The notes under the pieces: model-generated
Database searches by the model: none
Told to the model about the DNA's origin: nothing
What the model saw: only the letters and a program-made list of their open reading frames with translations
Assembly: GCF_900095385.1 (NCBI RefSeq)
Contig: NZ_FMID01000047.1
Location: 1-64,000 of the forward strand
Direction of reading: 5' to 3'
Length of the DNA stretch: 64,000 nt
Origin: Methanoculleus chikugoensis
GTDB taxonomy: Archaea > Halobacteriota > Methanomicrobia > Methanomicrobiales > Methanoculleaceae
Shown here: positions 11,547 through 34,012 of the stretch, one piece after another
Layout of the letters: each line of letters opens with the position of its first letter
Numbering within the stretch: the stretch's first letter is position 1
Translations under genes and position numbers: made by a program

Positions 11547-12167
11547 ATCCAGTTGTTTCTACCAGACCCCGGGTGTGGATAGTTCTCAGGTCACTAAAAG
11601 CGCACCGGGCATGAGCCGGGCCGGCGGACTGAGGGATAACCCGCTTCATAAGATTATCGGGGTTATCATACGCCGGCACATACAGGCTTCCGGCCGCTGA
11701 GGCGGCATTTGAGTGAACCGAGGTCTCATGCGGGGTATTGTGTCACGGGCCAGGGGCTGTTACGCTCAGTGCATGCCGCCTGTTTGAAGATATACTTTCG
11801 CCAACTACCCCCTCCTCTCGTCGGGGGGCATGGTACTCTGCTCCCATACAGGCTTGCGATGCCACCTCTCCCCGTGTTCGGGGTGTGGACCTGTGATATG
11901 AGCCCGGGCAAGCGTCTGGTGCTGCTGAGTTGCCGTTTGCGCTACCTCTCGGTACCGTCATGGGGACTCATCTTCTATGAACCGTCACCATGCGCCGCCG
12001 GATCGATCGGGTGTGCACGTCCCGCCGGGAAAAGGTTACTACCCACGACAGAGAGGAACGGCCCGGCAGAAAGACCACATTCCACAAACCCCGCCCCCAC
12101 ACGTCAGGGGTGTGACCGGGCGATCCGGCATAACTATTATCAGTCCCCGTGTCATGCCCCGATCCGC
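11547..12167. other. Intergenic stretch of 620 bases
   Basis: Lies between the divergent PAS sensor and the sugar dehydrogenase-like gene. Open frames run through it on both strands, but none has a start with a ribosome site or a recognisable product. I see no RNA gene or repeat. An AT-rich patch at about 12131-12140 (TAACTATTAT) may be part of the promoter of the downstream gene. Confidence 0.5.
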
Positions 12168-15244: not shown

Positions 15245-18200
15245 TCAGCGCCGCTTCCTCGCCCAGAGGAGGAAGGCCAGCGGTGCAAGGAAGGGCGCGT
15301 AGACGAGCGGTGCCGCAGGCGTCGTCGTCGCCGCGACGGTCGGCGCGGTCGTCATCGTCTCCGTCCCTTCGGGCGTCGCGGTAGCCTCTGTCGTGACGTT
15401 CGTCTCCGTCGTCATGGTGACGTTCTCCGGCATCGCGGCGATGGCGAAGGTGGAGAACCCGGGGGTGGTCGCCCGGAAGCGATACTTCCCGCTCTCTTCA
15501 CCGACGACCTCGGTCTCCAGGATCTGCCAGCCCCCGTTGACGTAGCGCATGAGCCTGACGTCCTCCGGGAGCATGTCGTGCTCCTCAAGCCACTTCGCCG
15601 GGATGGTGAAGGTCAACGTTGCGCCGCCGATCTGGTTCGGGTTCGCCCATGAGACGGCGATCTCAACGTACTCGTAGGTGCTGCCGCCGGGAGGCGCCGC
15701 CAGGTTGGGGCACCCCGTCTCCTTCACGGTCATCAGCAGCCGCGGGATGTTGTCGGCCGCCGTGATGGCGATGCTGCCGACCGACGTGACGTCGATACCC
15801 GAGAACGTGTGCGTCTCGCCGCCTTTCAGGTTCTCGCAGATTCCTGCGAAGAAGGTGGGGCCGGTGTCGCCGCCGCCGTCACTATAGGCGCGTTTGTTCG
15901 ATCCGGGGTTAGTCGGGGTCTGTGTGGGATCTGGTGTTGGATCGGGTGTAGGGTCGGTCGTGGGCGCCGCCGTGACGGTGACCGTGGCTGTTCCTTCAAC
16001 GCCCCCGGCACACGCCGTCACGTCCGTGGAGCCCAGTGAGAACGCCGCGAAGAGGCCCGAGCGGTCGATCGTGCCGACATCATCGTCGGAGCACGACCAC
16101 CTGACCCTGACCCAGTCCATCTCGTTCTCGCACTGGTCGAAGACCGTGGCCGTGAACTCCCGGGTTCCTCCGGGCGCGAGCGTGTCTTCAGACGGGTCGA
16201 CCTCGATGCAGGCCGGAACCGGGAGCGAGGGCTCGACGGTCACGCAGGCGGAGCCGGAGACCCCGTTCGCCGATGCGGTGAGAGTCACTTCGCCGTCGCT
16301 GAGAGCGGTGAAGGCGCCGCTGCAGAGATCGATCTCGCCGACGCAATCGTCGCTGCTCTCCCAGTCGATTATGACGTCGGGCATTTCGTAGCCGTACTGG
16401 TCGAATGCGGTTGCGGTGAGCGTCAGGCAGTTCCCGGCCGGGATGCAGAAGTCGGACGGGCTGACCTCGATCCGCGCAAGCTCCGGCGCCGTCGACCGGA
16501 CGGTCACCGTCGCGGTCCCGGATGCGTCGCCCGCTGTTGCGGTGACGGTCGTGCTGCCTTCGCCGCGCGCGGTGAAGAGGCCGTCATCGGTGATCTCGCC
16601 GACTCCCGGGTCGACGCACGACCAGCCAATCAGGGAGCCTGCGTTGTCCTGCAGGTCATACACGGCCGTGAACTGCCACTCGTCCCCACAGTTCAGGGTG
16701 ATCGCCGACGGGGAGACCACGACACCTGCGGATTCATCGGTGACCCCTACCTCCGCCGTCCCGGTGACCCCTTCGGCCGATGCGGTGACGGTCGCCGTGC
16801 CGCAATCAAGGGCGGAGAAGGCGCCGCTGCAGAGATCGATGGTTCCGACAGCTTCGTTGCTGCAGCACCAGTCGATCTCGACGTCGGGCATCTCGCAACC
16901 GTCCTGGTCAAGAGCGGTCGCGGTGAACGTCGCGGTGTCGCCGGCGGCGAGCGTTATCGCGACCGGGGTGACGACGATGCGGGAGAGGACGGGGTCGTTG
17001 CAGTTCACGGTGATGGTTGCGGTTCCTTCAGCACCGTCTCCGTATGCGGTGATGGTTGCCGTGCCGCCGTCAAGGGCGGTGAAGACGCCGCACTCATCGA
17101 TGGTGCCGACGTTCTCATCGCTGCACTCCCAGGTGATCTCGGCGTCCTCGACGATGTCGCCGAACCGGTCGAACGCGACGACTTCGAACTCCAGTTCGTC
17201 GCCGGTCTCGAGCGTTGCCGTGGACGGCACGACCGCGATCTTCGCGAGCGCAGGCCATTCGTTGACGGTGACGGTTACCCCCGCAGAGCAGTTTCCTGCC
17301 GTTGCGGTTACGGTCGCCGTACCCGCGGTGAGAGCGGTGAAGCATCCTTCCCCGTCGATGGTGCCGACGGTTTCGTCGCTGCAGGCCCAGTCGACCTCAC
17401 CGGCGGGCATGGCGTTGCCGTTCCGGTCGTGGCCCGTCACCATGAACCTCTGGATGTCATCGACGTCCAGTGTGGCCCGGGGCGGTGTGAGCGTGATACT
17501 CGTGAGCACCGGTTCAGCGGGGTCTTCTGCGTTGACGGTGACGGTCGCGGTCCTGGACACGTTGCCCGCCGACGCGGTGACGTTCGCGGTACCTTCGGCA
17601 AGGGCGGTGAAGCAACCGGTGTCGTCGATCTCGCCGACGGTTTCGTTGTCGCACGACCAGTTGAACACAATGCCGGTCATCTCAAGGCCGTTCTGGTCGA
17701 GAGCGGTTGCCGTGAACTGCTCGGTGTCGCCGACATCCAGGGTGGCCGTGTCCGGTTCGACCTCGATGCGTTCGAGGGCCGGTTCTTCGTGCTCATCAGC
17801 GGTGACCGTGACGGTCGCGGTTTCGGAGAGGTCGCCTGCCGTTGCGGTTACGGTCGTCGTGCCCGCGGCGAGAGCGATGAAGAGGCCGCTGGCATTGTCG
17901 ATGGTTCCGACGGTCTCGTTATCGCTCGCCCAGGTGACCGCAACGCCGGACATCTCGCCGCCGAACTGGTCGCGGACGGTTGCTTCGAACGTCACCGTGC
18001 CGTCGACCTCAAGTGTGGGCGTGGGCGGGTCGATCACGATGTCTTTTGCGATCAGTGCCTCAGTAGTGACCGTGACGGTAGCTTCTCCGGATTTGTCGCC
18101 TGCCGACGCGGTGATGGTCGCGGTACCTGCGCTCTTCGCGGTGAAGAGACCGGTGGAATTATCGATGGTCCCGACGGTTTCGTTGTCGCACGACCAGTTG

Positions 18201-19639
18201 AATGCAATGCCGGTCATCTCTTCTTCGAACTGGTCGAAGGCGGTTGCGGTGAACAGCTCGGTGTCGCCGATCTCCAGGGGGCCTGTGGACGGTTTAACCT
18301 CGATGCGATCGAGGGCCGGTTCCTCGGGCTCATCAGCGTTGACCGTGACGGTCGCGGTTCCGTTGATACCTTCGGCGGTCGCGGTAATGGTCGCGGTGCC
18401 CGCGGCATGGGCGGTGAAGAGACCGGTGCCATCGATGGTGCCGACGGTCGTGTTGCTGCACGTCCAGTCGAACTCGACGTCGGTCATCTCTTCTCCGGAC
18501 TGGTCAAGGGCGGTTGCGGTGAACAGCTCGGTGTCGCCGATCTCCAGGGGGCCTGTGGACGGTTTAACCTCGATGGTCGTCAGTTCCGGTGCTCCAGGAT
18601 CGTAGACGAATATGTAGAGGTTCGAGTCCGGGCCACGGCCCCTCTGCCAGACGATGGTGTTTCCGCTGACGGCGGGGTAGAGGTGTTCGTCACGTGTGTC
18701 TTTGGCCAGAACAACGGACATCTCTTCTCCACTGGAGACGTGGTCGTACATAAAGATGCTCCGCGCCGGAACCCGCATGTCCTCCCAGGCGATGATGCTC
18801 GCGCTGATTGCCGGCGAGACCTGTTCGGAAGTGTCGAACGTGATCCTTCGCTCTTCTCCGGACGGATCGTCGAGATCAGTCATGTAAATGTCGGCGTTCA
18901 CCCGGCGATCTTCCCAGGTGACGATGCTCCCGTACAGCGACGGCCAGGATTGTGTCACCTTGTTCGTGGATACCGGGCCGGATGTTCCTGCCTCGATATC
19001 GTAGTACCAGACTCTCTCACCGTCCGACGCATTTACCCAGGCGACATACCTCTCAGAGAGAGCGGGCTTGAACTCAGTGCTCCCGCCAGAAATCGTCGTC
19101 TTTGCGTCAGCGTCGATGGTGGCCTTCACGGCCCCCTCGCGGATGTCGTAGAGGACGATGTTTGTGCTGCCGGTACTGTCGTCGTACCAGGCAACGTAGT
19201 TCCCGCGGACGATGGGCATCCACTGTTTGCCCGGGTCGGTTGTGAGCTGTGTCTCTTCACCCGTCGAGCGCCGGTGGAGGTAGATATCCCAGTTCCCGTT
19301 CCGGTTGTCCTGCCAGACGATGTAGTCTCCTGAGATGGACGGTTTCTCCTGCGAGGCAGGGTTATCCGTTATACTCTCGCCCGAGTAGGAAGGATACTGC
19401 ATACCCCGATATGGATCTGCCCTGAATTTGTCTACCGTCCCAAAGTAGATGTCCTTGTTACCGTTCCTGTCGTCTTCCCAGACGATCATGTTGCCGTCGA
19501 TATCAGGCCATTCCTGCGCTTTATTGAAGGGAGAATAGAGATCCTCTCCCAGCGCAGCCTCTACCGCCATGACCGGCGGTACCAGCATCCCGATCGCGAC
19601 GACTGCGCACAATAGTAGCAGATATGTGTGTTTTGTCAT
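15245..19639 (-). CDS. Giant surface protein: beta-propeller plus ten Ig-like repeats
   Basis: A 1464-residue exported protein. The ATG at 19639 is chosen because AGGGGG lies five bases upstream and a signal peptide (to VMAVEA) starts there. Residues about 25-350 form a TolB/WD40-like propeller with repeated IVWEDDRNGN and IVWQDNRNGNWDIY blades. Ten bacterial Ig-like (Big_2-type) repeats of about 85-90 residues follow, each with the pattern W-C-S-D-x-x-VGTID then GxATVTA. A module resembling the PGF-pre-PGF domain, a Thr-rich stalk and a C-terminal membrane segment ending ARKRR complete it. It is likely anchored in the membrane and extends through the S-layer as an adhesin (inference). Confidence 0.85.
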   Translation of the reverse strand: MTKHTYLLLLCAVVAIGMLVPPVMAVEAALGEDLYSPFNKAQEWPDIDGNMIVWEDDRNGNKDIYFGTVDKFRADPYRGMQYPSYSGESITDNPASQEKPSISGDYIVWQDNRNGNWDIYLHRRSTGEETQLTTDPGKQWMPIVRGNYVAWYDDSTGSTNIVLYDIREGAVKATIDADAKTTISGGSTEFKPALSERYVAWVNASDGERVWYYDIEAGTSGPVSTNKVTQSWPSLYGSIVTWEDRRVNADIYMTDLDDPSGEERRITFDTSEQVSPAISASIIAWEDMRVPARSIFMYDHVSSGEEMSVVLAKDTRDEHLYPAVSGNTIVWQRGRGPDSNLYIFVYDPGAPELTTIEVKPSTGPLEIGDTELFTATALDQSGEEMTDVEFDWTCSNTTVGTIDGTGLFTAHAAGTATITATAEGINGTATVTVNADEPEEPALDRIEVKPSTGPLEIGDTELFTATAFDQFEEEMTGIAFNWSCDNETVGTIDNSTGLFTAKSAGTATITASAGDKSGEATVTVTTEALIAKDIVIDPPTPTLEVDGTVTFEATVRDQFGGEMSGVAVTWASDNETVGTIDNASGLFIALAAGTTTVTATAGDLSETATVTVTADEHEEPALERIEVEPDTATLDVGDTEQFTATALDQNGLEMTGIVFNWSCDNETVGEIDDTGCFTALAEGTANVTASAGNVSRTATVTVNAEDPAEPVLTSITLTPPRATLDVDDIQRFMVTGHDRNGNAMPAGEVDWACSDETVGTIDGEGCFTALTAGTATVTATAGNCSAGVTVTVNEWPALAKIAVVPSTATLETGDELEFEVVAFDRFGDIVEDAEITWECSDENVGTIDECGVFTALDGGTATITAYGDGAEGTATITVNCNDPVLSRIVVTPVAITLAAGDTATFTATALDQDGCEMPDVEIDWCCSNEAVGTIDLCSGAFSALDCGTATVTASAEGVTGTAEVGVTDESAGVVVSPSAITLNCGDEWQFTAVYDLQDNAGSLIGWSCVDPGVGEITDDGLFTARGEGSTTVTATAGDASGTATVTVRSTAPELARIEVSPSDFCIPAGNCLTLTATAFDQYGYEMPDVIIDWESSDDCVGEIDLCSGAFTALSDGEVTLTASANGVSGSACVTVEPSLPVPACIEVDPSEDTLAPGGTREFTATVFDQCENEMDWVRVRWSCSDDDVGTIDRSGLFAAFSLGSTDVTACAGGVEGTATVTVTAAPTTDPTPDPTPDPTQTPTNPGSNKRAYSDGGGDTGPTFFAGICENLKGGETHTFSGIDVTSVGSIAITAADNIPRLLMTVKETGCPNLAAPPGGSTYEYVEIAVSWANPNQIGGATLTFTIPAKWLEEHDMLPEDVRLMRYVNGGWQILETEVVGEESGKYRFRATTPGFSTFAIAAMPENVTMTTETNVTTEATATPEGTETMTTAPTVAATTTPAAPLVYAPFLAPLAFLLWARKRR

Positions 19640-20905
19640 TTTTCCCCCTTGACAATCGCTCCCTGTCCGCAGGACGGCGGCGCAGACCTTCCGGTAGCAC
19701 AAACAGGCTGGCTAAAGCAGGTGCTCGCCGGAGCGTCCGGCAGGCGGAGAGCGAATTCCGATTTAAGACCCGGTCATATGGTAGCCGGTGAGTGGGTGGA
19801 TAGCGGTATAAATATATATCCTTTACGGTGATTTATTCTCAAATTTTTATAATAAAAACAGGGATCTCTTATGCATCCTTATGGGCAGAGGGAGATCCGG
19901 AGGGAGCTTTTTCAAACTGCTTCCTGCCGGCGGGGAGGAGGCCGGTGGCCGCGTATATTCTCCCCCGGACCATTCCTGCCGCGATTTTTTCGTTAAATCT
20001 CTTGCAGAAGGACCGGGTGCCCGACCGGGCGGCACATCGCCGCAAGGTCCCGCCGGTTCCTCAGCCGGGTGACCCACACCATGGCGTCGTCGCGGGTTCG
20101 TCGGGGCGTTCGTGTAATAGCGGGCGGACGCATCAAGCCTGCCCGGCTCCTTTTCCCGGTCAAGGCCCGAGTGGGAGAGCGGAACCATTTCATCCCGACA
20201 ATATTTCCGGCAGTGTCTGCAGAAACGCTGCTGATTTTCTGCGAAACTCTTCCCATACGGGTAAGGCGGTAAGCATTCGACCGGGGCACACCCTATCGGG
20301 GAAGAGGAAAGGTCGATCCTGGTCTCCGTCGCAGACCGTCCTGTTTGCCAATCAACCCCGCGGGGAGTTGAGCATATCTATGTTACTATATTAATGGTTG
20401 AATATTCCGAACAAAGTATTATATATTCCAGGTGCCAGCATGAAACTCAACACCTAAGGGGGGAGTGATATTCGGCGACACGCTCACCTACTGGAGTTTT
20501 GCTCGATCGATACGAAATGTAGGCCTCCTCGGCATCCAGACATAGGGTGCCGGCGGTTGAGCGGTACCTACCCTGCAGAGGCTGTCGGATGACGTCGGTA
20601 CGGCTGCAGGATGTTGGGAAAAATCCGTTTGCGAGGGTGCGGGAGGAACCTCAGCGGAGCGACCGGATTTCCGGAGACCCGGTGACGGTCCACTTCGACG
20701 CCGGCAGCCGGAGCCGGAACCACCGGCTTACTACAGGCGGTGAGGAGGCACTCACCTGCACCCCTGCAGCCTGCCCGCACCGCATCGGAGAGCATGGGCT
20801 CGCATCCCTCGCCGAATGCGGGATCCGGCTCCTCCCTTTGTTCCGCCGGAACTACTACGCCGGCATAATCAGACAACGGCTCAAGCAGCAGGTTTGTGAT
20901 CGCGT
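19640..20905. other. Long intergenic region with AT-rich promoter patches
   Basis: About 1.27 kb without a gene I can support. It contains AT-rich patches at about 19795-19860 (ATAAATATATAT) and at 20385-20430. A plus-strand frame at 20589-20909, which ends in an ATGA overlap with the glycosyltransferase start, could encode about 106 residues with several cysteines, but I do not recognise it. It may be a decayed gene. No RNA gene or clear repeat was seen. Confidence 0.5.
20416..20429 (+). promoter_or_regulatory. Possible TATA element upstream of glycosyltransferase operon
   Basis: AGTATTATATATTC stands out in otherwise GC-rich DNA and would suit an archaeal TATA box. It is far (about 480 bases) from the first recognised start, so it fits only if the leader is long or if the small frame at 20589 is real. 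Confidence 0.3.
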
Positions 20906-22084
20906 ATGAAGATCCTCCAGGTGACACCGTTCTTCAAGCCGAGCTGGGAGTCCGGGGGTGTGGCACGTGCGGCATATGAGATCTCAAAGCGTCTCCAGAG
21001 AGCAGGCCACGACGTCACCGTATATACGACGAATCGGAGCACCTACCCGACCGGGCTTCCCACGAACAGACCCCTCAATGTCGACGGGATGAAGGTTTAC
21101 TATTTTGAAAATTTACGGAAGTATTTTCCGGGCACAGCAGCACTCCCCATAGTCCCGTACTATTTACCGTTCGTTGCACACCGGGATCTGCAGAATTATG
21201 ATATAATTCACATCCACGAGCACAGGACACTCCTTGCGGCCATGGTAAGTCATTATGCCAGGGAGTACGGCGTTCCCTACGTCCTGCAACCGCACGGATC
21301 GCTCCCGAAGAACAAAACCCTGGGTAAGGCAAGGGTGAAAAATGTCTTTGATTTTATCTTCGGCTCTGCCATTTTAGATGCTGCATCAAGGCTGATCGTC
21401 ATGAACAGCATGGAAAAGGAACAGAATATGCTGATGGGCATTCATGAGGATAAGATCGCCGTTATTCCCAACGGCATCAGTTTCGAGAGGTGCGTTACCG
21501 CCAGGAGCAAAGGGGAGTTCCGGAAATTTTGCGGAATAGAGAACGGAAGCAATCTCATTCTATACCTGGGCAGAATCGATAAAATCAAGGGGATCGATTT
21601 TCTGATAGAAGCGTTTTACCGGCTGGTGCAGGAACAAAAAGACGCCATCCTGGTCATTGTCGGGCCGGAATGGGGTTACAAACGGGAACTCGAGGAGAAA
21701 GTACGGGCTCTCGGCATTCAGGATCGGGTACGGTTTGTCGGGTATATCGATGACGTCGGCTTTGCCTACCAGGATGCCGATCTGCTTGTCTATCCGGGAA
21801 AGTATGAGATATTCGGGCTTGTTCCGTTCGAGGCGATCATAAGCGGAACCCCGGTGATTGTGACAGACGGCAACGGCAGCGGAGAGCTCATCAGGAAAGG
21901 CGACTGCGGCCTGACGGTACGATACGGAGACTGTGCGGATCTGGCGGAGAAAATGGCATTCTGCCTTGAAAATCCCGGGGAAGGGAGAAAAATGATTCAG
22001 CGAGGACAGGAGTTCGTTCGAAAGAATCTGACATGGGACCGGGTCGTGGAAAAACTCGAACAGGAATACCGGAAGTGCCTATGA
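20906..22084 (+). CDS. GT4-type glycosyltransferase
   Basis: A 392-residue GT-B fold glycosyltransferase. The N terminus MKILQVTPFFKPSWESGGVA is typical of family 4. The C-terminal nucleotide-sugar site shows EIFGLVPFEA (the E-x7-E pair) and SGTPVIVTDGNGSGELI. It transfers a sugar from an activated donor to a lipid-linked or protein glycan. Its stop overlaps the next start as ATGA, so it is translationally coupled to the glycosyltransferase at 22081. Codon use looks more AT-rich than in the flanking genes, hinting at acquisition by transfer. Confidence 0.92.
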   Translation: MKILQVTPFFKPSWESGGVARAAYEISKRLQRAGHDVTVYTTNRSTYPTGLPTNRPLNVDGMKVYYFENLRKYFPGTAALPIVPYYLPFVAHRDLQNYDIIHIHEHRTLLAAMVSHYAREYGVPYVLQPHGSLPKNKTLGKARVKNVFDFIFGSAILDAASRLIVMNSMEKEQNMLMGIHEDKIAVIPNGISFERCVTARSKGEFRKFCGIENGSNLILYLGRIDKIKGIDFLIEAFYRLVQEQKDAILVIVGPEWGYKRELEEKVRALGIQDRVRFVGYIDDVGFAYQDADLLVYPGKYEIFGLVPFEAIISGTPVIVTDGNGSGELIRKGDCGLTVRYGDCADLAEKMAFCLENPGEGRKMIQRGQEFVRKNLTWDRVVEKLEQEYRKCL

Positions 22085-23283
22085 ACATACTGGCGATCCC
22101 GACAACCGTCGGGTTGTCAAAACCCCAGAGCGGGGGCCAGAACAGGTTCTGCAACCTCGTCAAGTGCCAGGCCGCAAATAACCGTATCGTTGTGCTCGAA
22201 CCGGCTCACCTGTATGATGAGAGCGATGACGATGTCGCGCAGGTATACACCTATCACGATATCGAGGCGCTCCGGAGAAGACTATCCATATTCAGGGACA
22301 TCAATCCCGATTTCATCCGTAAGGCGGCACAGATCATCAGGGACGAAGAGATCGATCTCATCCAGATCACCCATCCCAGCGGAGCGTTAGCGGCCAGGCT
22401 GCTCGGTCTCGTTACGCGCAGGAAGATAACGGTAGTCTACGATGCTCACAATGTCGAATCTGATTTCATTCAACAGACCTTTGCGAACCATAACCACTAC
22501 TCCCTGGTGGAGCGGAAACTCATACCCGCCTATACGAATTTACTGGAGAGGGTCTCATGCAAGTATCTCGTCGACCACATCACCGCCGTGAGCGACAATG
22601 ATGCAGGTACGTTCAGGAGAAGGTATCATCTCAAAGACGGGACGATCAGTGTCGTTCCTTCGGGCTGCACCATTTGTCCGCGGATATCTGATGAAGCAAG
22701 AACCAGGATTCGCGAAGAGATGGGGCTGCATCCCACGGATATTGCCGTATTCTTCCACGGCCTCTACAGGCATCCGCCGAACCGGGAAGGGTTCGATCTT
22801 ATTCAATCGTATATCGCCCCTCGTTTTGCCGATACAAACCCGGACGTATCATTTGTCATCGGTGGAACGCAGGTTCCGGAGTTTGAAGAAGCAAATGTCA
22901 GGTCGCTTGGATTCATCAGCGATATGCAGAATGTTGCCGGCGCCGATATCGCCATCGTACCTCTGAGAAGCGGAGGAGGAACAAGACTGAAGATATTCGA
23001 TTATATGAGCGCCGGTCTCCCCATCGTGACCACGAAGAAAGGAATCGAAGGAATCGATGCCGAACATCACGAGCATGCGATCATCGTCGACGACATCGAC
23101 GAAGAGTTCATAGCGGGGATCAGGTATCTGATCGAAGATAAAGACGAACGGAAGAGAATCGGAGATAATGCTCGAGCACTGGCCGAAGCGAAATATGACT
23201 GGCGAATAATCGGAGGGAACCTGGAAGACCTGTACCGGACGCTGGTTTCGGGGTCAGGTGCCCGTCATACCGGTTTCGCATAG
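22081..23283 (+). CDS. Glycosyltransferase
   Basis: A 400-residue GT-B type glycosyltransferase. The N-terminal half has a VVYDAHNVESDFI acceptor-side segment. The C-terminal half has PLRSGGGTRLKIFDYMSAG followed by LPIVTTKKGIEGI, the usual donor-binding region. The ATG at 22081 is set by the ATGA overlap with the preceding gene and gives a good N terminus (MNILAIPTTVG). It probably acts on the same surface glycan as its neighbour. The DUF2206 membrane protein gene starts nine bases after its stop. Confidence 0.9.
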   Translation: MNILAIPTTVGLSKPQSGGQNRFCNLVKCQAANNRIVVLEPAHLYDESDDDVAQVYTYHDIEALRRRLSIFRDINPDFIRKAAQIIRDEEIDLIQITHPSGALAARLLGLVTRRKITVVYDAHNVESDFIQQTFANHNHYSLVERKLIPAYTNLLERVSCKYLVDHITAVSDNDAGTFRRRYHLKDGTISVVPSGCTICPRISDEARTRIREEMGLHPTDIAVFFHGLYRHPPNREGFDLIQSYIAPRFADTNPDVSFVIGGTQVPEFEEANVRSLGFISDMQNVAGADIAIVPLRSGGGTRLKIFDYMSAGLPIVTTKKGIEGIDAEHHEHAIIVDDIDEEFIAGIRYLIEDKDERKRIGDNARALAEAKYDWRIIGGNLEDLYRTLVSGSGARHTGFA

Positions 23284-23291
23284 ATGGTGCC

Positions 23292-25553
23292 ATGCAGATC
23301 CGAAACCCCATTACGCTAAACGACTGGAGGATCCGGAGTTATTTCATTGCGATCCTGGTGTTCCAGCTGGGGCTGCTGGTTATACAACTCTTGGGGAGTG
23401 CGAACTCGCATATCCTGGTTCTGCAGGCGATCCTGGGATTTGCCTTCTTCTCATTCATTCCGGGCATAATCGTCCTCAGAATCATGAGGGTACATCATCT
23501 GAGCACCATCGAAACGCTTCTCTACGCAGTTGGATTGAGTATAGCAATCCTCATGTTCACCGGATTGCTCATGAGCGTGCTTTATCCCCTCGTTGGGATC
23601 TCCCGGCCGCTGTCACCCGGTTCAACCCTGATGACGATCAACGTCGCGACATCGATCCTGCTCTTGCTCAGCCTCGTCCGAGATAAAGAACCCGTCGAAC
23701 CGGGCTATATCGATACGGAGATGGTTCTCTCGAGACCTGCGCTTCTCCTGTACCTGGTGCCGCTACTGACAATTATCGGGACCTATGTTGTAAACCAGTA
23801 TCACAGCAACGGAGTTCTCATGCTGGTGATCGCGTTCATCGCGGTTATCCCTATACTGGTTGGATTCGACCGGGTGATCCCGGAAGCGTTATACCCTCTG
23901 GCGGTTTTATCCATTTCCGTCTCGCTGTTGCTTCACACGTCGCTCGTATCCCCGTATCTCTGGGGCTATGATATCCACTATGAGACGTTCCTTGCAAACC
24001 TCGTCATGGACAACGCATTCTGGGACTCCACAAGTCCCGGAAACGTGAACGCAATGCTCTCCGTCGTCCTGCTGGCTCCGATCTACTCGTATGTCACGGG
24101 ACTGGACCTGACATGGGTGTTCAAACTGGTCTATCCGCTTACGTTCGCCCTGGTGCCCCTGGGACTGTATCATGTTTTCCGAAGGCAGGTGGAGGCAAAG
24201 AGCGCTTTCCTCGCATGCTTTTTCTTCGTCTCGTTCATCATATTTTACGCGGAGATGGCCTCTCTGGCGCGTCAGGAGATTGCAGAACTCTTTCTCGTCC
24301 TGCTCATCATGCTCATGGTCGCGAGGAATATACCCAGAACAACGAATTTCACGTTATTTGTTGTATTCGGTGCCTCTCTGGCTGTCTCGCATTATGGAAC
24401 ATCGTATATCTACCTGTTCGCCCTCATCGCGGTCTGGCTCTATATAACGCTCTCCTCGATCGCCGCAACCCGCGGCGATACTATGCTCAACCGTTCGCGA
24501 ACAGCAGCAGGGGAGAGATCATCAGGCGGAGGCTCCCTGAGCCGGAGAGACGATGGAAGGACGGTAACGTTCGCCCACGTCCTCTTCTTTACCGGGTTCA
24601 CGCTCGGGTGGTATATGCTCGTCGCGGGAGGGACATCCTTCGATACAATCGTATCGATCATCGATCATATCGGCAGTACGATCGTTGTCGACCTGCTGAA
24701 CCCCGAGGCGACCGAAGGGCTGGATCTCCTCATCAGTACTCCTCAATCGCCCCTGCATACCGTCGCCAAGGGCCTCCACCTCATAACTCTGGCACTCATC
24801 GTCGTCGGGTTCATCGCCATCTGTTCCCGGCGCGCCGACACCAACATTTCACGGGAATACGTTACGTTTTCTTTTATTGCGCTCCTTTTCGGAGTTGCGG
24901 GCGTCCTCGTACCGAACTTTTCCAGCACACTCAACACCTCAAGACTCTACCAGATTGTGCTCATCTTCCTTGCCCCGCTCTGTGTTATCGGCGGCATCAG
25001 CATACTTACAGCACCGGGAACATACATCGCTAAACTCCGGAGCGGATGGCTCACGGGACGGACGCCGCTGGTACTGCTCTCGGTTTTCTTCTCACTGCTG
25101 TTCCTCTTCAGTACGGGTTGGATCTACGAGTGCGCCAACGATCAGCCGTCATCCATCGCGCTGAGCCAGGATTCGATCAAGAAATACGGGGGCGATACAC
25201 CGAAAAATGTCTTCTATGGAACGTTCATACCGGAGCACGACGTTTTTGGTGCCCGCTGGCTGGGTGAGTACATGAGGGACGGTTCGATCGTCTATGCGGA
25301 TAGAACACGGAAAGATAATGTACTGACTTCCTACGGCAACCTCGCGAGGAACCCTCCCTTTTTGCCAAAAACAGATTTCAAACCGGTTTGGGGCGCATAT
25401 ACCTATCTGGGCACATATAACGTCGTCGAGCGCTCCGCAAGCGGTCCTGAGGAGTATTATGATTACTGGAGCATCGAAGAGATATATCCCGCGATCCGCC
25501 GCAACAACAAGGTGTATTCAAACGATCAGAGCGAGATCTATCGGAACGGGTGA
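23292..25553 (+). CDS. DUF2206-like polytopic membrane protein
   Basis: A 753-residue integral membrane protein with more than a dozen hydrophobic segments and a soluble C-terminal tail of about 120 residues. The arrangement resembles archaeal DUF2206 proteins, which look like GT-C type glycosyltransferases using lipid-linked sugars on the outer face. No conserved DxD pair was pinned down with confidence. It is the third gene of the glycosyltransferase run and likely contributes to the same glycan. Role inferred from context. Confidence 0.75.
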   Translation: MQIRNPITLNDWRIRSYFIAILVFQLGLLVIQLLGSANSHILVLQAILGFAFFSFIPGIIVLRIMRVHHLSTIETLLYAVGLSIAILMFTGLLMSVLYPLVGISRPLSPGSTLMTINVATSILLLLSLVRDKEPVEPGYIDTEMVLSRPALLLYLVPLLTIIGTYVVNQYHSNGVLMLVIAFIAVIPILVGFDRVIPEALYPLAVLSISVSLLLHTSLVSPYLWGYDIHYETFLANLVMDNAFWDSTSPGNVNAMLSVVLLAPIYSYVTGLDLTWVFKLVYPLTFALVPLGLYHVFRRQVEAKSAFLACFFFVSFIIFYAEMASLARQEIAELFLVLLIMLMVARNIPRTTNFTLFVVFGASLAVSHYGTSYIYLFALIAVWLYITLSSIAATRGDTMLNRSRTAAGERSSGGGSLSRRDDGRTVTFAHVLFFTGFTLGWYMLVAGGTSFDTIVSIIDHIGSTIVVDLLNPEATEGLDLLISTPQSPLHTVAKGLHLITLALIVVGFIAICSRRADTNISREYVTFSFIALLFGVAGVLVPNFSSTLNTSRLYQIVLIFLAPLCVIGGISILTAPGTYIAKLRSGWLTGRTPLVLLSVFFSLLFLFSTGWIYECANDQPSSIALSQDSIKKYGGDTPKNVFYGTFIPEHDVFGARWLGEYMRDGSIVYADRTRKDNVLTSYGNLARNPPFLPKTDFKPVWGAYTYLGTYNVVERSASGPEEYYDYWSIEEIYPAIRRNNKVYSNDQSEIYRNG

Positions 25554-25820: not shown

Positions 25821-27056
25821 TCACAGAACGTACCGCCTGGCCATGGACAGCACGACAACGATGCCGATCGACGCGTATGTCAGGATCCATGCATACCCCA
25901 CACCGAGGATCCCGTACTGCAGCATCAAGGCATAACTGGATCCCAGAAGCAGGATGAAGATGATGGCGCTGATAGCGATCAGGCTTTTCAGCCCGTACTG
26001 GACTTTCTTGATTGCAATAAATACTTCTGAAAACGAGAAGAAAAAACTTGAAATTGCCAGAACCTTGACTAGTTCGAGCCCTGCTACATAATCCGGACCG
26101 ATCAAACCGAGGATATACTCTCCAAATACGAAGAGGCCCACAACCGCCGGAACGAGCAGCGCAAAAATTCCGGCGAGCGATTTCAGCACGTTTCTCTTCA
26201 GTGCTTCGCCGTGGCTCCCCTCGACAAAGAGCGATGTCGTAAATGACGTGGGTATGAGGAATAAGAACATGACAATCGCATACGCAATGAAGTACTGAGC
26301 GGCTTGTTCTGCACCGAGAATGTTCAACACAAGGATCGGGAGGATCGTGCTCGGGGCCGCAATGAGCAATCCGGAAACGTAGTTCCCTGCAGAGAAACGA
26401 AACGAATCGAGCAAAAATTCCCGATCAATGCCGGAAAGACGAATCCCCGACCTGTAGAGCAGGAAGACCGAAACTATGAGGGCGATGATGAACGAGAGAC
26501 CCAGCGAACTGAAGATGCCGAGTGCTCCGAGAAAAACCAGGGGGATGAGGATAAGGAGCCTTGAACCGAAAAGGAGGCTCTGAAGGAAGTAGAACTCGGA
26601 TTTCCGCAGTGCAATGAATGCTGCACCGATGAAGGCCGTTACGGAGTTGGCTATCAGAAAGGCGATGTAGAGGAGCGCATAGTCCTTGACCTGGTGCAAC
26701 CCGGGCGACCAGATATCCACCGTAGCTATGAACAGAACTCCCAGGACAAGCCCGAATAGTGTCGTGACGGTTATTGCCGTCCCGAGGACTCTGGATTTAT
26801 CCCGCGTCGGAAAAAACCGTATGATCGATTGATCGAACCCGAGCTTCGATAAGAGGATCAGCATCCCCATGGATGAGATAAGCGCCGTTGCAACTCCTAC
26901 GTCTTCTTGCGGGTAGAACCGTGCTGCAAGCATCCAGAAGATGAAACCAAAGCCTGCACTTGAGATTGATGTGATGATGATGAAGAACGTATTCCTGTAC
27001 AGCGGGTCTACAAGATAGGTCTTCAGCTCAATGGGGCTTTTCGGGAACGCGTGCAT
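25821..27056 (-). CDS. Polysaccharide flippase-like membrane protein (Wzx/MATE type)
   Basis: A 411-residue membrane protein with about 12 hydrophobic segments, typical of lipid-linked oligosaccharide flippases of the MOP superfamily. The N-terminal NTFFIIITSISSAGFGFIFW and WMLAARFYPQEDVGVATALI match the conserved first two helices of the family. It would move glycan-lipid units across the membrane for surface glycosylation. It converges on the DUF2206 gene with about 270 bases between them. A GGGGGG tract just before the ATG may act as ribosome site. Confidence 0.85.
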   Translation of the reverse strand: MHAFPKSPIELKTYLVDPLYRNTFFIIITSISSAGFGFIFWMLAARFYPQEDVGVATALISSMGMLILLSKLGFDQSIIRFFPTRDKSRVLGTAITVTTLFGLVLGVLFIATVDIWSPGLHQVKDYALLYIAFLIANSVTAFIGAAFIALRKSEFYFLQSLLFGSRLLILIPLVFLGALGIFSSLGLSFIIALIVSVFLLYRSGIRLSGIDREFLLDSFRFSAGNYVSGLLIAAPSTILPILVLNILGAEQAAQYFIAYAIVMFLFLIPTSFTTSLFVEGSHGEALKRNVLKSLAGIFALLVPAVVGLFVFGEYILGLIGPDYVAGLELVKVLAISSFFFSFSEVFIAIKKVQYGLKSLIAISAIIFILLLGSSYALMLQYGILGVGYAWILTYASIGIVVVLSMARRYVL

Positions 27057-27395
27057 TACCCCCCCAATGGATGTATCGCGTATATCAAATTATCCGTCCT
27101 GACGGCTCTCCTGCACCGGTATCGCCATATCGAGGGGTCCTATTCCGGCAAAAAAGGATCCAGAACGGTCGGCATGTCCACGCATTCTCCTGTTCTGCAA
27201 GAGGCGCGAAGTGCGGTGTCTCCGTAGCCCAAAAGAGAATAGGCTGTTACTAACGACGGATCCGGGCATCCCCGGATCAGGTGAAAAAACCTGTCCATAA
27301 TCAATATGACCACGTACTGTACAGGTGTTACGGGGCGGCACCCGTGGCAAAACCCGGAGGAGAGGAGGGATCAACCGCTCCTCCCGGTAGACGCT
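27057..27395. other. Intergenic stretch of about 340 bases
   Basis: Lies between two minus-strand genes. I see no gene, repeat or RNA. It presumably holds the terminator of the beta-helix protein and the promoter of the flippase gene. Confidence 0.4.
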
Positions 27396-29966
27396 TTAGA
27401 GAGAAGAGGTCCTGCCGAAGAAGAAGTCGGCGATCAGGGCAACATCCTTCCAGTCCACGGTGCCGTCACCATTAACGTCGGCAGCCGGGTCGGACGGCGT
27501 TGTTTTCTGCGCCATCTCGGCAGCGATCGTCACGTCGACCCAATCGACGTTGCCGTCTCCGTTGAGGTCGCCCCTGACGGGGGCGGGGGTGCCGACGACG
27601 ATCGCTTTGCTCATGACGTTGTTGTTCTCGTTCGACTCGGCGATCCGGTTGACGTCGTCGACGGTGGCCTTCACGGTGTGGGTGCCCTCAATGGCCTTCC
27701 AGGTTGCACCGGCCGAGCCGCCGTTCGCGGTCAGGATGATTGACGCACCGGGAGCGATCGCCGTGGCGTGGGTGTCGGACCAGACGCCGGGACCTGCCGC
27801 GCCGTCATCGAACGTGAAGAGGACGCCGTGCTTGGTGCCCGCAGGCGTCGCTGCGGTGCCCTGGTTCTTGATCGTGGCCTTCAGCGTCACCGCATCCCCG
27901 GTGGCCGGGTTTGCCGGCGTCCAGGAGATGTCGGTCACCACAAGGTCCGGCTTCCCGGAGGGGGCCGGCGTGGTGGGGGTGGGGGTCGGGGTGGACCCCG
28001 ACGCGGCCTTCGAGACCGCGATCTGCTCGGTGCGAACGTTGTTGGCATCGTTCGACTCAGCAATCCGGTTGACGTCGTCGACGGTGGCCTTCACGGTGTG
28101 CGTACCCTCGACGGCCGTCCAGGTTGCACCGGCCGAGCCGCCGTTCGCGGTCACGGTGACCCAGGAGCCGGGGGCGATCGATGCCGTGTGGGCGTCGGAC
28201 CAGACCCCGGGGCCGGCGGCACCGTCATCGAACGTAAAGAGGACGCCGTGCCGGGTGCCCGCAGGCGTGGGGGCGCCGCCCTGGTTCTTGATCGTTGCCT
28301 TCAGCGTCACCGCATCCCCGGAGGCGGGCTTCGCCGGCGTCCAGGCGATGTCGGTCACCACAAGGTCCGGCTTCCCGGAGGGAGCCGGGGTGGTCGGGGT
28401 CGGGGTCGGGGTCGGGAGCGGAGCGCTGCCGGGCCTGACGACCGTACAGTCGGTGATCCTGACCGCCCCTGAGTTGACGCTGCTCGTCGTGATTCCCGAC
28501 GAACCCACCGGAAGCGTATTCGAAACCGTCTTGATACCTTCAACGACGACGTTGTTGGTCCCTCCTCCCGCTACGGTGAACGGCGTCGCCACGTCGGATA
28601 CAATGCTCCCGGTGAATTTCGAATTGGATGCACTGTTCACCGTGACAAGTCTGGACGCGCTGTTCCCTGAGGCATGGATGTCGAGGTTTGAAGAGACAAA
28701 ACCCACTCCCAGTGCGGGGTCTCCTATCAGAGCGCCGACACCGTCGATGCCTCTTGGGTTGGTCATCGTGAAGTTCTTGATCTGGACGTAGTCGACGAGC
28801 GTTGCGTAGAGACCGCGACCGTGGGAGTTGATGCTCGCGCAGTTCTCCATGACGATCGAGGGGTTGGCGTTCGTCAACTGCGACTGTACGATGAAGAACG
28901 ATGTCGGCTTCACCGCCGAGTAGTCGGTCTTCCCCCGGCCCGTCTCGAAGTCCGTGCAGTCGTACAGGTAGACGCCGTCGGGGTAGCTGAAGAAGAACCC
29001 GTAGGCACTGTTCCCTTCTGCGGTGCAGTTGTTGAACGTGTACGAGCCCTTCGGCGCGTAGTAACCGGAACCGAAGTAGTCCTCGCCGCCCAGGCTGTAG
29101 GTCTTCGGGAACGGCTTCTGGCCGTTGTTTCTGCTGATGCAGTCGGTGAGAACGATATCCTTCTTGGTTGGACCGTACTCGAAGTGGAACCCGGACTCAA
29201 GCGTGCCTTCGGCGACACACCGGGTCACCCGCAGGTTCTCGATGTCGTTGAGTTCCGCAAAGTCGAACCCGGTAACCCAGGGGTTGTAGGCGCTGTATCG
29301 ACCGCAGTCGATTGCCTTGCAGTCGGTATACCGTACGTTCTTGTGCACCTTGTAGTTGGTGCCCCATGAACTGTGGAGAAACCCGTAGGTTCCGGGGCTG
29401 TCTGCAACCACCCGGGTGAACTCGATGTCCTCGATGTTCTTGTTGCCGAGACCGACGGAGCGCACATAGAAGAGCCCCTGGATGGTCCGGTCGGCAGTTC
29501 CGGTGACGTCCCGGACAGCGTTGTGACCTGCACGGATGTACACCACGCCGAAGTCGCGCGATGCGCTGTAGCCGGTGCCTTTGACATGGAAGTTCTCCAG
29601 CGTCACGTATTCGGCATCGACCCGGAGAATCCCGTCGTTCGTGAACCGAATAGAGGTCTTATCGTCGCCCTGGCCGGAGAGAGTCGTATGTGCCCTGGGC
29701 AGAATACTTCCGGTGCAATTGAACGTCCCTTCCGTCAACCGGACGGTTCCGCCGCTGGCGGGGAGGGCGTTGATAGCGTTCTGAATCTCCGCCTGATCGT
29801 TTGATCCGTCACAGACATAGTCGGCCTGAGCCTTCGCTGTGCTGGTGCTGTCACTTGCAGCCACGGTTACTGTGGCCGTGCCGGGCTCAAGTGCTCCGAC
29901 AAACGGCACCATGCCGAATACCAGAAACACTGCAATAATTAGCCTCGTTGTTCTTTTGACTATCAC
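27396..29966 (-). CDS. Secreted beta-helix protein with two CARDB domains and a dockerin
   Basis: An 856-residue exported protein. The start is a GTG with GAGGTGA upstream. A signal peptide (1-25) leads into a right-handed parallel beta-helix (about 35-510) that opens with the pectate-lyase-like segment ASGGTVRLTEGTFNC. Two CARDB repeats follow (about 530-645 and 665-785), separated by Thr/Pro linkers. The C terminus is a type I dockerin with two Ca-binding loops, GDLNGDGNVDWVDV and DVNGDGTVDWKDV. Beta-helix domains bind or cleave polysaccharide; the dockerin would dock on a cohesin. It is a paralogue of the protein at 30540. Confidence 0.88.
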   Translation of the reverse strand: MIVKRTTRLIIAVFLVFGMVPFVGALEPGTATVTVAASDSTSTAKAQADYVCDGSNDQAEIQNAINALPASGGTVRLTEGTFNCTGSILPRAHTTLSGQGDDKTSIRFTNDGILRVDAEYVTLENFHVKGTGYSASRDFGVVYIRAGHNAVRDVTGTADRTIQGLFYVRSVGLGNKNIEDIEFTRVVADSPGTYGFLHSSWGTNYKVHKNVRYTDCKAIDCGRYSAYNPWVTGFDFAELNDIENLRVTRCVAEGTLESGFHFEYGPTKKDIVLTDCISRNNGQKPFPKTYSLGGEDYFGSGYYAPKGSYTFNNCTAEGNSAYGFFFSYPDGVYLYDCTDFETGRGKTDYSAVKPTSFFIVQSQLTNANPSIVMENCASINSHGRGLYATLVDYVQIKNFTMTNPRGIDGVGALIGDPALGVGFVSSNLDIHASGNSASRLVTVNSASNSKFTGSIVSDVATPFTVAGGGTNNVVVEGIKTVSNTLPVGSSGITTSSVNSGAVRITDCTVVRPGSAPLPTPTPTPTTPAPSGKPDLVVTDIAWTPAKPASGDAVTLKATIKNQGGAPTPAGTRHGVLFTFDDGAAGPGVWSDAHTASIAPGSWVTVTANGGSAGATWTAVEGTHTVKATVDDVNRIAESNDANNVRTEQIAVSKAASGSTPTPTPTTPAPSGKPDLVVTDISWTPANPATGDAVTLKATIKNQGTAATPAGTKHGVLFTFDDGAAGPGVWSDTHATAIAPGASIILTANGGSAGATWKAIEGTHTVKATVDDVNRIAESNENNNVMSKAIVVGTPAPVRGDLNGDGNVDWVDVTIAAEMAQKTTPSDPAADVNGDGTVDWKDVALIADFFFGRTSSL

Positions 29967-30539
29967 TAAGTCACCTCGTTCAGGCGATACCCAGTATCAG
30001 AAAATCGTAATATATAAAAATATTTAAATTCATTAGAGATATATAATACGTGGTATTTTTAATCGGATTGATTACAACTGCGATAAACCTAAAATAAAAT
30101 TAAATTGACTCTTTAATATAATAATAACTTATTTATCTTGCTATTTAAACTATGGGCGTGGACGACGCGAACTCGCACGCAGCCGTATGGCTGTTCGGAA
30201 GAACGGCCGGTGTACAAGATAATGGTTTTGTGCAGTCCGATAGTAATTTCATGCGTTTAAATCGGAGTAAAGATCCGGTGGAGATCACGTTCCCGCAACC
30301 GTCGTCGCCGGACACCGTGCCCGCAGGTGTCGAACGGCTCTATCCCCGGCCGGTGAAAAGGCCGTCGGTCGGAAGAGGCGGAATAAGCCCTGAAACCGGA
30401 TCCCGGACGACAGGAGCGATCGGGACGAATCGAATCCGGAGATCTTTTGTGCCGGAGAGTGGAGAGGAGGAGTGCGGATACGGCTCAAACGGATGTTCTG
30501 TATATTCAGCGGGCGATTCTCGTGTCTGCCGAACACGTG
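29967..30539. other. Intergenic AT-rich promoter region
   Basis: About 570 bases, strongly AT-rich at 29998-30150 with several TATA-like runs (ATATATAAAAATATTTAAAT). It probably holds the promoter for the minus-strand dockerin protein and the 3' flank of the next paralogue. No gene recognised. Confidence 0.6.
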
Positions 30540-32144
30540 TCACGACTTCACGATCGTCACTGCACCCTCGGGTACATCCTGTGTCAACGTTATGCCCGCT
30601 GAGCCGACCGGTAACATCTGCATGTTCTGTACCCGTACATTGCTGGTCCCGTACCCGTCGATAACAAATGGATGCGCCGCGTTTGAATTTATCTGCCCGG
30701 AGTATATAACATTCCTGTTACCCATCGCGTATACCAGAGTGGAGACCCGATCCCCCGTTGCATGGATGTCGATGCTGGAATCCACAAATAACGCTCCTCG
30801 CGGCGAACCCCCCACCACAGCGCCCTTGCCGTCGATCCCGGCCGGATCAGTCAACCGGAAGTTGTTGATCTGTACGTGATCCATCAGCGCAATATGCAGA
30901 CCGTATCCGAAAGATTCGATGCTTTCACAGTTCTCCATGACGATCGAGGGGTTGGCGTTCGTCAATAGCGACTGCACGATGAAGAACGACGTCGGTTTCA
31001 CCTGCGAGTAGTCGGTCTTCCCCCGGCCCGTCTCGAAGTCCGTGCAGTCGTACAGGTAGACGCCGTCGGGGTAGCTGAAGAAGAACCCGTAGGCGCTGTT
31101 CGCTTCCGCGGTGCAGTTGTTGAACGTGTACGAGCCCTTCGGCGCGTAGTAGCCGGCACCGAAGTAGTACTCGCCGCTTGTGTCGTAATAGTCGGGGTAG
31201 GGTTTCCGGCCGTTGTTTCTGCTGATGCAGTCGGTGAAGACGACGTCGTTCTTGTTGGGTGCCCATTCGAGGTGAAACCCGGATTCCCAGTTGCCTTCGG
31301 CGATACACCGGGTCACCCGCAGGCTCTCGATGTCGTTGAGTTCCGCAAAATCGAATCCTGTGACCCAGTTATTGAATCTGGAATGCCGGCCGCAGTCGAT
31401 TGCCCTGCAATCGGTATACTGGACGTATCTGTGTACCGTATTGTCGGTATCCTGCGAACTATGGAGAAATCCGTACGTTCCGGGACTATCGGCCACACAG
31501 CCGATGAACGCAATGTACTCGATATCCCTGGTATAGCCTTCGATGGACTGCACGTAAAAAACGGCCTGGATGGACCGATCAGCCGTGGCCGTGACGTCTT
31601 TGATCCACATATGGCTTGCAGTGATGTAGATCACACCCCTGTGCGCCGATTTCCCGGAGTAGCCGGAGCCGGTTGCCCGGAACCCTTCCAGCGCAATAGA
31701 ATCGCTTTTCATCCAGATCAGGCCGTTATCTGTAAATATCAGGTGGGTAGACTCATCACCCTGTCCTTTCAGGGTCGTGTAGGATCCGGGCAGGATGTTT
31801 CCGGAACACTTGAACGTCCCTTCCGTCAGCTGGACGGTTCCGCCGCGGGCGGGGAGGGCATCGATCGCAGCCTGAATCTCATATTGGTCGTCGATACCGT
31901 CACAGATATAATCTGCTCCGGCTTTCGATGCCGCACTGCTGTCGCTCGCTGCGACGATGATGGTGGGCTCTGTCACCGTCGGCACCACGGGAGCCGGTAT
32001 TGCCGGCACCGGCGGGCCGGACGGAGCCGGTTTCCACGGCTGTAAATGCAATGCCAGCACAACGGCACACACGGCTGCTATCACGATGATTATGGCAATA
32101 AGCGTGCGTTTGCCTCTCTTTTGGGGATATGGTATCGCCGGCAT
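30540..32144 (-). CDS. Membrane-anchored beta-helix protein, paralogue of the dockerin protein
   Basis: A 534-residue protein with a short basic N terminus and one hydrophobic anchor (about 14-33) instead of a cleavable signal. It then has a proline-rich linker and a parallel beta-helix (about 65-530). The helix core closely matches that of the protein at 27396, including DFETGRGKTDYS and VKPTSFFIVQS. It lacks CARDB and dockerin. It is probably a cell-attached glycan-binding or lyase-like protein. The two genes look like a local duplication with different C-terminal fates. Confidence 0.85.
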   Translation of the reverse strand: MPAIPYPQKRGKRTLIAIIIVIAAVCAVVLALHLQPWKPAPSGPPVPAIPAPVVPTVTEPTIIVAASDSSAASKAGADYICDGIDDQYEIQAAIDALPARGGTVQLTEGTFKCSGNILPGSYTTLKGQGDESTHLIFTDNGLIWMKSDSIALEGFRATGSGYSGKSAHRGVIYITASHMWIKDVTATADRSIQAVFYVQSIEGYTRDIEYIAFIGCVADSPGTYGFLHSSQDTDNTVHRYVQYTDCRAIDCGRHSRFNNWVTGFDFAELNDIESLRVTRCIAEGNWESGFHLEWAPNKNDVVFTDCISRNNGRKPYPDYYDTSGEYYFGAGYYAPKGSYTFNNCTAEANSAYGFFFSYPDGVYLYDCTDFETGRGKTDYSQVKPTSFFIVQSLLTNANPSIVMENCESIESFGYGLHIALMDHVQINNFRLTDPAGIDGKGAVVGGSPRGALFVDSSIDIHATGDRVSTLVYAMGNRNVIYSGQINSNAAHPFVIDGYGTSNVRVQNMQMLPVGSAGITLTQDVPEGAVTIVKS

Positions 32145-33409: not shown

Positions 33410-33505
33410 TTACTCTATCTCCAGATCCCGTTTCAGCGCTTCATGGGTCACGAACGCGCCCCGCCGGATCTCATTGAGCGACGCCCGGATGCCGGTGAGT
33501 ATCCC
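33410..33505 (-). pseudogene. 3' remnant of a DUF7557-like antitoxin gene
   Basis: This segment aligns base by base with the 3' end of the intact antitoxin gene at 34386 (CTCCAGATCCCGTTTCAGCG against CCCCAGATCCCGCTTCAACT). It ends with the same D-L-x-I-E-stop. The rest of the gene and its toxin partner are absent. Confidence 0.75.
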
Positions 33506-33631
33506 CGGACACCTCCCGTCCCTGTTCCGCTCAAGGAGTGTTCTCCGCACATCTCTCGAACGGGGAAGCATCCCTGCCGTCCGGTTCGAAATGAGCAGCC
33601 TTTTATCCGGTTAAACGGCATATTTCCATTT

Positions 33632-34012
33632 ATGGCAGGCGCGGATATCGAGGGCGGGGTCTCGGAGGTGCTGAGCGCGATCCTGATGGTGGCGGTCGCG
33701 GTCATCCTCGCGGCAATCGTGGCATCGCTGGTCTTCGGGATCGGGCTCCCGGAGGAGCCGAAGACCGTCGCGGTGACGGCGACACGGTCCGGGGATAACG
33801 TCACATTCATGGTGCACGGCGGGATGAACATGGACCGGGTCGCGGAGATCCGGTGCTGGATCGGCGGGGTCGGGGAGGGGAACGAGAACTTCAAACTCGA
33901 CGTCCGGGCCGGGGCGACCAATACATCCAGCATCTCGGACGCGACGCGGGTTGTTATCGTCGGGACGTCTGGTGATAACGAGTCGTGGATACTGCTTGAT
34001 AAGACGCTCTAA
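33632..34012 (+). CDS. Archaeal type IV pilin-like protein
   Basis: A 126-residue protein with the archaeal pilin N terminus: a short leader MAGADIEGG, then a hydrophobic helix with SEVLSAILMVAVAVILAA. Prepilin peptidase would cut just before or within EGG. The remainder is a small beta domain. Such proteins assemble into adhesive pili after signal removal. The motif differs from the usual AVSPVIG of the pilin at 47270 (here GVSEVLSA). No pilus assembly genes are nearby, so it depends on machinery elsewhere. Confidence 0.82.
   Translation: MAGADIEGGVSEVLSAILMVAVAVILAAIVASLVFGIGLPEEPKTVAVTATRSGDNVTFMVHGGMNMDRVAEIRCWIGGVGEGNENFKLDVRAGATNTSSISDATRVVIVGTSGDNESWILLDKTL

Follow-up and report, generated by a model that had tools for sequence, protein, structure and literature searches.

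The 64,000-nt stretch of the Methanoculleus chikugoensis genome analysed here (the window; part of contig 26) encoded two paralogous beta-helix proteins, D and N, adjoined by surface-glycan genes. D possessed a C-terminal type I dockerin that is under purifying selection in 12 genomes with no detectable cohesin, and D proteins of the same genome have repeatedly exchanged their tails, one overwriting the other, by ectopic gene conversion. D and N are probably extracellular enzymes editing the glycan of the adjacent cluster, with the tail of D serving as an exchangeable targeting module whose partner would not be a recognisable self cohesin.

Architecture of the paired beta-helix proteins

D (27396-29966; 856 aa) and N (30540-32144; 534 aa) were both encoded on the minus strand, as listed among the open reading frames (ORFs). 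Above its cut-offs, Pfam recognised CARDB (two stretches), Dockerin_1 (6e-07) and Beta_helix in D, and Beta_helix in N. D began with a signal-peptide-like segment, judged from the sequence alone with no predictor, followed by the beta-helix core (residues 30-505; 28452-29879; Pfam and BLASTP, with the fold taken from the paralogous core of N). The tail comprised a first CARDB domain (approximately residues 533-646; 28029-28370; limits judged by eye), a second one (residues 672-786; 27609-27953) and the dockerin (27432-27572), with two intact calcium-loop motifs and VDWxDV in each. In N, which was also identified by BLASTP, a hydrophobic N-terminal anchor (residues 13-33; 32046-32108) preceded a proline-rich linker and the beta-helix; this anchor was modelled as a helix, the best-scored region of an otherwise poor single-sequence AlphaFold model (pLDDT 37.8). 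The two cores shared 298 of 475 residues (63% identity, BLASTP), and N, used as a query, was 91% identical to proteins of Methanoculleus sp. FWC-SCC3 and MH98A.

The adjoining genes encoded two GT4 glycosyltransferases (GTa, 20906-22084; GTb, 22033-23283) and a multi-spanning DUF2206 membrane protein (23292-25553), all on the plus strand, and a Wzx-like Polysacc_synt flippase (25821-27056, minus strand), the last three assigned with Pfam. The original prediction had described paralogous beta-helix proteins with similar cores, one secreted with CARDB repeats and a dockerin and one anchored, next to surface-glycan genes, and the Pfam and sequence analyses agreed with it in each of these respects.

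Two copies of the cluster in Methanoculleus

The genome of M. chikugoensis (G000; 2.65 Mb, 99.7% complete) possessed six copies of the core, two in the window and four on contig 11. On contig 11, the order was glycosyltransferase, DUF2206, flippase, D, N and then a secreted core (T) with an Orc1/Cdc6 gene next to it, while another secreted core (F) lay beyond the glycosyltransferase. Twenty-one loci of this type (A) were compared using matches to marker genes. In 20 of them the marker next to D was the flippase, and in 20 an intact N adjoined D; a contig end (G004) and an interrupted N (G028) account for the exceptions. DUF2206 and F were each found in 19 A loci, T and Orc1 each in 17, and a GT4-like match to GTa of the window in 13, several of the misses being contig ends. 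Copy A is widespread in the genus, usually with two further secreted cores. The Orc1/Cdc6 gene near the A cluster (L055:7720-8868) may indicate a replication-origin neighbourhood.

The window locus is a second copy (B) of this common cluster, present in a subset of species. The order from GTb to N was found in four genomes (G000, G003, G006, G033), the stretches fetched for the last three starting inside GTa or GTb, and the locus was interrupted by contig ends in four more (G004, G025, G022, G009). B-related genes also occurred in another genus of the same family (G036), with no flippase among its marker matches. Because the B loci of G004 and G006 (L058, L057) were 99.9% identical over 7.2 kb while their A loci were mostly 89% identical (over 10 kb, with 98.8% in the adjoining 1.8 kb), the two lineages probably shared the B locus, together with its tail, in a recent horizontal exchange of a surface-glycan locus. 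Just past the N gene, the window also encoded an archaeal type IV pilin (Pilin_N; 33443-34012, plus strand); G003 and G033 had a similar ORF close to their B loci, and G004 a weaker match.

Cohesin distribution and selection on the dockerin

The original prediction held that the dockerin implies a cohesin partner, saw none in the window, and named a cohesin search of the genome as its check and the absence of any cohesin from the genome and from co-cultured partners as its refutation. Indeed, no cohesin was detected in the window or elsewhere in the genome: PF00963 gave no match at E ≤ 0.001, and a lineage cohesin model (A1) gave none at E ≤ 1, leaving room for a cohesin beyond the reach of both models. 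A partner encoded in the same genome was therefore not supported, and the genomic half of that refutation holds. Model A1 was built from ten lineage cohesins, two of them from the genus (G011, G016); it scored 6.7e-23 or better in six congeners, four of which had contributed no rows, and found nothing at E ≤ 1 in 11 other genomes (96-99% complete) picked as Pfam-negative.

With PF00963, cohesins were detected in 32 of 100 relatives (E ≤ 0.01). Across all 35 Methanoculleus genomes, the lineage model matched in 11 at E 2.5e-7 or better and marginally in one (G026, E 0.27), and the remaining 23, M. chikugoensis included, had no match at E ≤ 1; G020, G022 and G028 were scored negative in a later batch. 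Dockerins sharing 69% identity or more with that of the window were present in 27 of the 35 genomes, 18 without and nine with a detectable cohesin; three of the 27 (G007, G027, G034) had it in a short frame that was not linked to any D protein, and one (G018) had it in a protein of the C type described below. Two genomes (G002, G023) possessed a cohesin and no such close dockerin. Contig ends apart, the gene neighbourhood was the same in 15 of the 18 cohesin-less and six of the nine cohesin-bearing genomes. On the A-locus tree, which stood in for a species tree and was limited to 18 species selected for having an A locus (G020 and G022 unscored), cohesin presence switched at least four times, and the dockerin was retained in all 18 species scored.

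The dockerin belonged to the type I family (PF00404), with a profile match above the curated cut-off and two calcium-loop repeats. Neither a cognate cohesin in the same genome (PF00963, model A1) nor a multi-cohesin scaffoldin of the cellulosomal kind was detected alongside it. Both Pfam dockerins of the genome resided in paralogous beta-helix D proteins; a third match, on contig 63 (E 0.9), was rejected, as the ORF encoded a glycoside hydrolase with MGH1-like and GH63 domains. Against solved structures, the dockerin half matched cellulosomal dockerins, the best being 2y3n (4.2e-06), as well as two chains labelled serine protease (8x39, 8x3a).

In each of the 26 tails left after weak matches had been removed, both loops had Asp at positions 1 and 12, either Asp or Asn at positions 3 and 5, and an invariant Trp. 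The pooled NG86 omega of the dockerin was 0.19 in the 12 cohesin-less genomes, and that of CARDB was 0.20 in both the cohesin-less and the cohesin-bearing group; as the pooled pairs are not independent, omega values are descriptive, and G020, G022 and G028 belonged to neither group.

Elsewhere in the genus, cohesins were located in large proteins, with frames of about 1,200-2,000 aa (L037, L039 and L088-L093, from G016, G011, G013, G010, G029 and G009). Several of these had dockerins nearby, and no such cohesin protein was found in the M. chikugoensis genome.

Gene conversion of the dockerin tail

Recent gene conversion between the neighbouring cores had been raised in the original prediction, and a nearly identical core patch was present (94-97% DNA identity; residues ~311-370 of D, 28857-29036; ~341-400 of N, 30945-31124; both minus strand), strong conversion being found instead between the dockerin tail of D and that of the contig 11 paralogue. 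Identity in the D-N patch was 0.88-1.00 within genomes versus 0.88-0.90 between genomes, most clearly so in G033. Recent conversion as the main link between D and N was rejected, since near-identity was confined to about 60-80 codons and since much of the patch also recurred between genomes.

Between the two D genes of M. chikugoensis, DNA identity was 46-73% in 40-codon windows of the core and rose sharply near codon 520 to 92-100% across both CARDB domains and the dockerin, with third positions 85-100% identical in the tail versus about 28-62% in the core. The tract common to both loci (27293-28419, minus strand; 1131 columns, ~1.13 kb) covered the linker, the two CARDB domains, the dockerin and the 3' untranslated region, ending about 100 bp past the stop codon, and was 95.8% identical to the contig 11 copy. 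Tracts of near-equal extent were observed in G003 (95.7%), G004 (98.1%), G006 (88.3%) and G033 (87.0%). In all five genomes, the A and B cores were only 0.59-0.61 identical (DNA), versus 0.92-0.98 between orthologous D cores and those of G000, and in three of the five the A and B tails reached 0.971 (G000), 0.962 (G003) and 0.984 (G004). The orthologous tails of G000 and G003 (0.944 and 0.948) and their cross-locus comparisons (at most 0.950) fell below the within-genome values of these two genomes.

In the phylogenies, tails grouped by species and cores by locus. The core tree grouped sequences by locus and class, with a fully supported split between A and B and the G036 protein on the B side. 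In the tail tree, the A and B tails of G000 clustered together (99/98), as did those of G003 (89/77, a node not starred), while the A tail of G004 joined the B tails of G004 and G006, which are identical to each other (100/99); a single clade of B tails was rejected (p-AU 0.0015). In G004, the A tail matched that of the sister genome G030 at 0.935, no different from the remainder of the A locus (93.5%); the donor was therefore probably the A tail and the recipient the B tail. Through such conversion, both enzymes would keep one address while their cores diverge. Two other sources of tail identity were rejected: assembly collapse, because there is a 3-4% difference between the copies, they are on separate contigs, and a one-contig genome (G003) has the same pattern, and strong constraint, because third positions are alike in the tail and not in the core.

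Alternative tails in relatives

Fourteen further loci with more distant cores were examined, of which 12 encoded a pair and eight had a GT4-like neighbour match. The longer partner carried three golvesin-C domains (G059), CBM6/35 (G039, G044), PEGA with or without CARDB (G001, G029) or CARDB only (G030, G027, G009, G043), and no tail domain was recognised in that of G054. In G018, of the same class as G030, CARDB was followed by a dockerin with the VDW motif, which scored 20.7 bits over the whole protein, slightly below the 22.9 cut-off. The variety of these tails is consistent with an interchangeable targeting module.

Beta-helix pairs of yet another class, the third (C type), were observed beside GT4 genes (L103, L104, L105, L106, L101); this class possessed a dockerin in G018 and CARDB only in G030, G027 and G009.

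Fold and conserved residues of the core

The AlphaFold model of the N core, obtained from a 10-row alignment (mean pLDDT 81.6, pTM 0.85), adopted a right-handed beta-helix of the pectate-lyase-like fold (50 matches listed, Z 23.6-30.9). It had the fold of the AlgE-type A-module, with matches to the C5-epimerases AlgE4 (Z 30.9, rmsd 2.5, 327 aligned residues) and AlgE6 (Z 30.6), an alginate epimerase/lyase (29.4) and the Vibrio polysaccharide (VPS) lyase RbmB (28.4). Over 89 Methanoculleus-type cores with at least 400 aligned residues, one of them from a neighbouring genus, 102 columns were at least 97% conserved. When 26 distant cores were added (115 cores, three families), 20 polar or Cys columns remained conserved, including, in D numbering, D57, W230, E238, E257 (25 of the 26 distant cores), E263, N281 and a row of Cys columns. 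An acidic cluster close to the invariant Trp is a putative catalytic site.

Proposed role and alternative explanations

As the cores sit beside a flippase and glycosyltransferases, the role of D and N is most likely the editing of an exported glycan. The glycan would be built inside the cell by the assembly cluster (GT4, DUF2206, flippase), and flipped outward to the surface, where the pair of right-handed beta-helix enzymes would then epimerise, cleave or trim it. N would be tethered by its N-terminal membrane anchor, F and T would be soluble, and D would be released and retained in the envelope or glycan layer via its CARDB-CARDB-dockerin tail. The dockerin would be a functional calcium-binding module with a partner other than a recognisable self cohesin. 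We put forward more tentatively, as a possibility short of an even chance, that the Methanoculleus dockerin has been uncoupled from cohesin altogether. It would then serve, loaded with calcium, as an address tag on enzymes that edit glycans, with either a second dockerin of its kind or an envelope protein other than a cohesin as its partner, and be kept uniform between glycan clusters by recurrent ectopic conversion of the ~1.1 kb tail cassette.

Several observations weigh against the glycan-editing reading. By sequence, the core matched no solved structure, AlgE-type epimerases included, so the case for enzyme activity is built on the fold and the conserved residues. Phage tailspikes score level with AlgE4 (Z ~30, within 1 Z), so the AlgE-type fold does not single out epimerases; the same fold occurs, lower among the matches listed, in NosD and in the non-enzymatic adhesins PfbA and pertactin, so the fold by itself leaves the activity unfixed; and Foldseek TM-scores to AlgE4 were just 0.26-0.49. 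Dockerin omega was slightly higher, not lower, in the six cohesin-bearing genomes (0.25). Of the five genomes that have both loci, two (G006, G033) gave no sign of a recent A-B event, their A and B tails (0.875 and 0.869) being no closer to each other than to their orthologues; tail conversion is therefore episodic.

Conventional cohesin-dockerin pairing, with a cohesin that is too divergent for detection, lies in an assembly gap or comes from a partner microbe, is somewhat unlikely. The two intact calcium loops would fit it, nine of the 27 dockerin-bearing congeners do have cohesins, and archaeal pairs are reported to bind (in the part of PMC9012536 consulted, citing Bayer 1999 and Haimovitz 2008). 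It is at odds with a cohesin model that detects six congeners strongly and yet is silent in the M. chikugoensis and 11 other genomes, and with a dockerin that persists in every scored species through the repeated switches of cohesin presence; in addition, the dockerins of the cohesin clusters compared (L049, L050, L053) lacked the paired W motif. It is very unlikely that the dockerin is a functionless relic, hitch-hiking on a conserved CARDB tail and homogenised by conversion. Conversion can keep copies alike where a genome has both loci, and C-type relatives retain CARDB without a dockerin; yet single-copy cohesin-less genomes also conserve the dockerin, its omega equals that of CARDB in 12 cohesin-less A tails (0.19 and 0.20), and the loop positions were constant in 26 of 26 tails.

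We regard as unlikely a third alternative, in which the beta-helix proteins are non-catalytic adhesins and the CARDB and dockerin domains form a stalk and tip. CARDB is called an adhesion domain in the available part of PMC5244752, and the presence of PfbA and pertactin among the fold matches points the same way. Trp, Glu and Asn columns were nevertheless invariant in the 115 cores, the linkage to glycan assembly genes is tight, and most of the highest-ranking fold matches act on carbohydrates (epimerases, lyases, tailspikes). Editing of the cluster's glycan by D and N is the reading we retain. Methanoculleus offers a clean natural experiment, since 18 genomes with a close dockerin have no detectable cohesin and nine others have one, and the binding partner of an orphan dockerin becomes directly testable within the genus.

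Other genes in the window

The window also encoded a 1485-aa surface-type protein with about 10 Big_2 Ig-like domains (15245-19702, minus strand), and a protein combining a glucose/sorbosone dehydrogenase-like domain with a C-terminal cupredoxin (11709-14177, plus strand), which was judged surprising for a strict anaerobe.

Comparison with known systems

In a literature search at the level of titles and abstract openings, no prior description of the locus was found. Like type I cohesin-dockerin systems, including the non-cellulosomal archaeal ones, D carries a Dockerin_1 domain with two calcium loops at the C-terminus of a secreted putative carbohydrate-active enzyme; unlike them, the M. chikugoensis genome yielded no cohesin, its Pfam dockerins are confined to the beta-helix paralogues, and the loops have paired VDWxDV motifs. 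AlgE-type C5-epimerases and alginate or VPS lyases resemble the D and N cores in fold and in the proposed role, post-export editing of an exopolysaccharide; D and N differ from them in the lack of a sequence match, an archaeal host and different tails.

A third likeness is to the dockerin, cohesin and CARDB surface proteins of anaerobic methanotrophic archaea (ANME) and methanogens (PMC9012536, PMC5244752), which, in the parts of these sources consulted, share the archaeal surface and the same modules. ANME-1 and ANME-2a are described there as rich in both dockerin and cohesin, whereas the dockerin of D is uncoupled from cohesin and belongs with a glycan cluster. As one genome column of a table in PMC5244752 (header not visible in the portion seen) lists 17 dockerins and 0 cohesins, archaeal dockerins without cohesins are already in print; the same portion states the function of non-cellulosomal dockerin proteins as unknown. 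The kinds of module are all known, and their combination (an orphan dockerin under selection, on an enzyme of a glycan cluster, with a tail kept alike across loci) is a variant that the same literature search did not show as described. The family would be one of archaeal surface enzymes in which targeting tails are exchanged and made uniform from locus to locus while the catalytic cores evolve separately.

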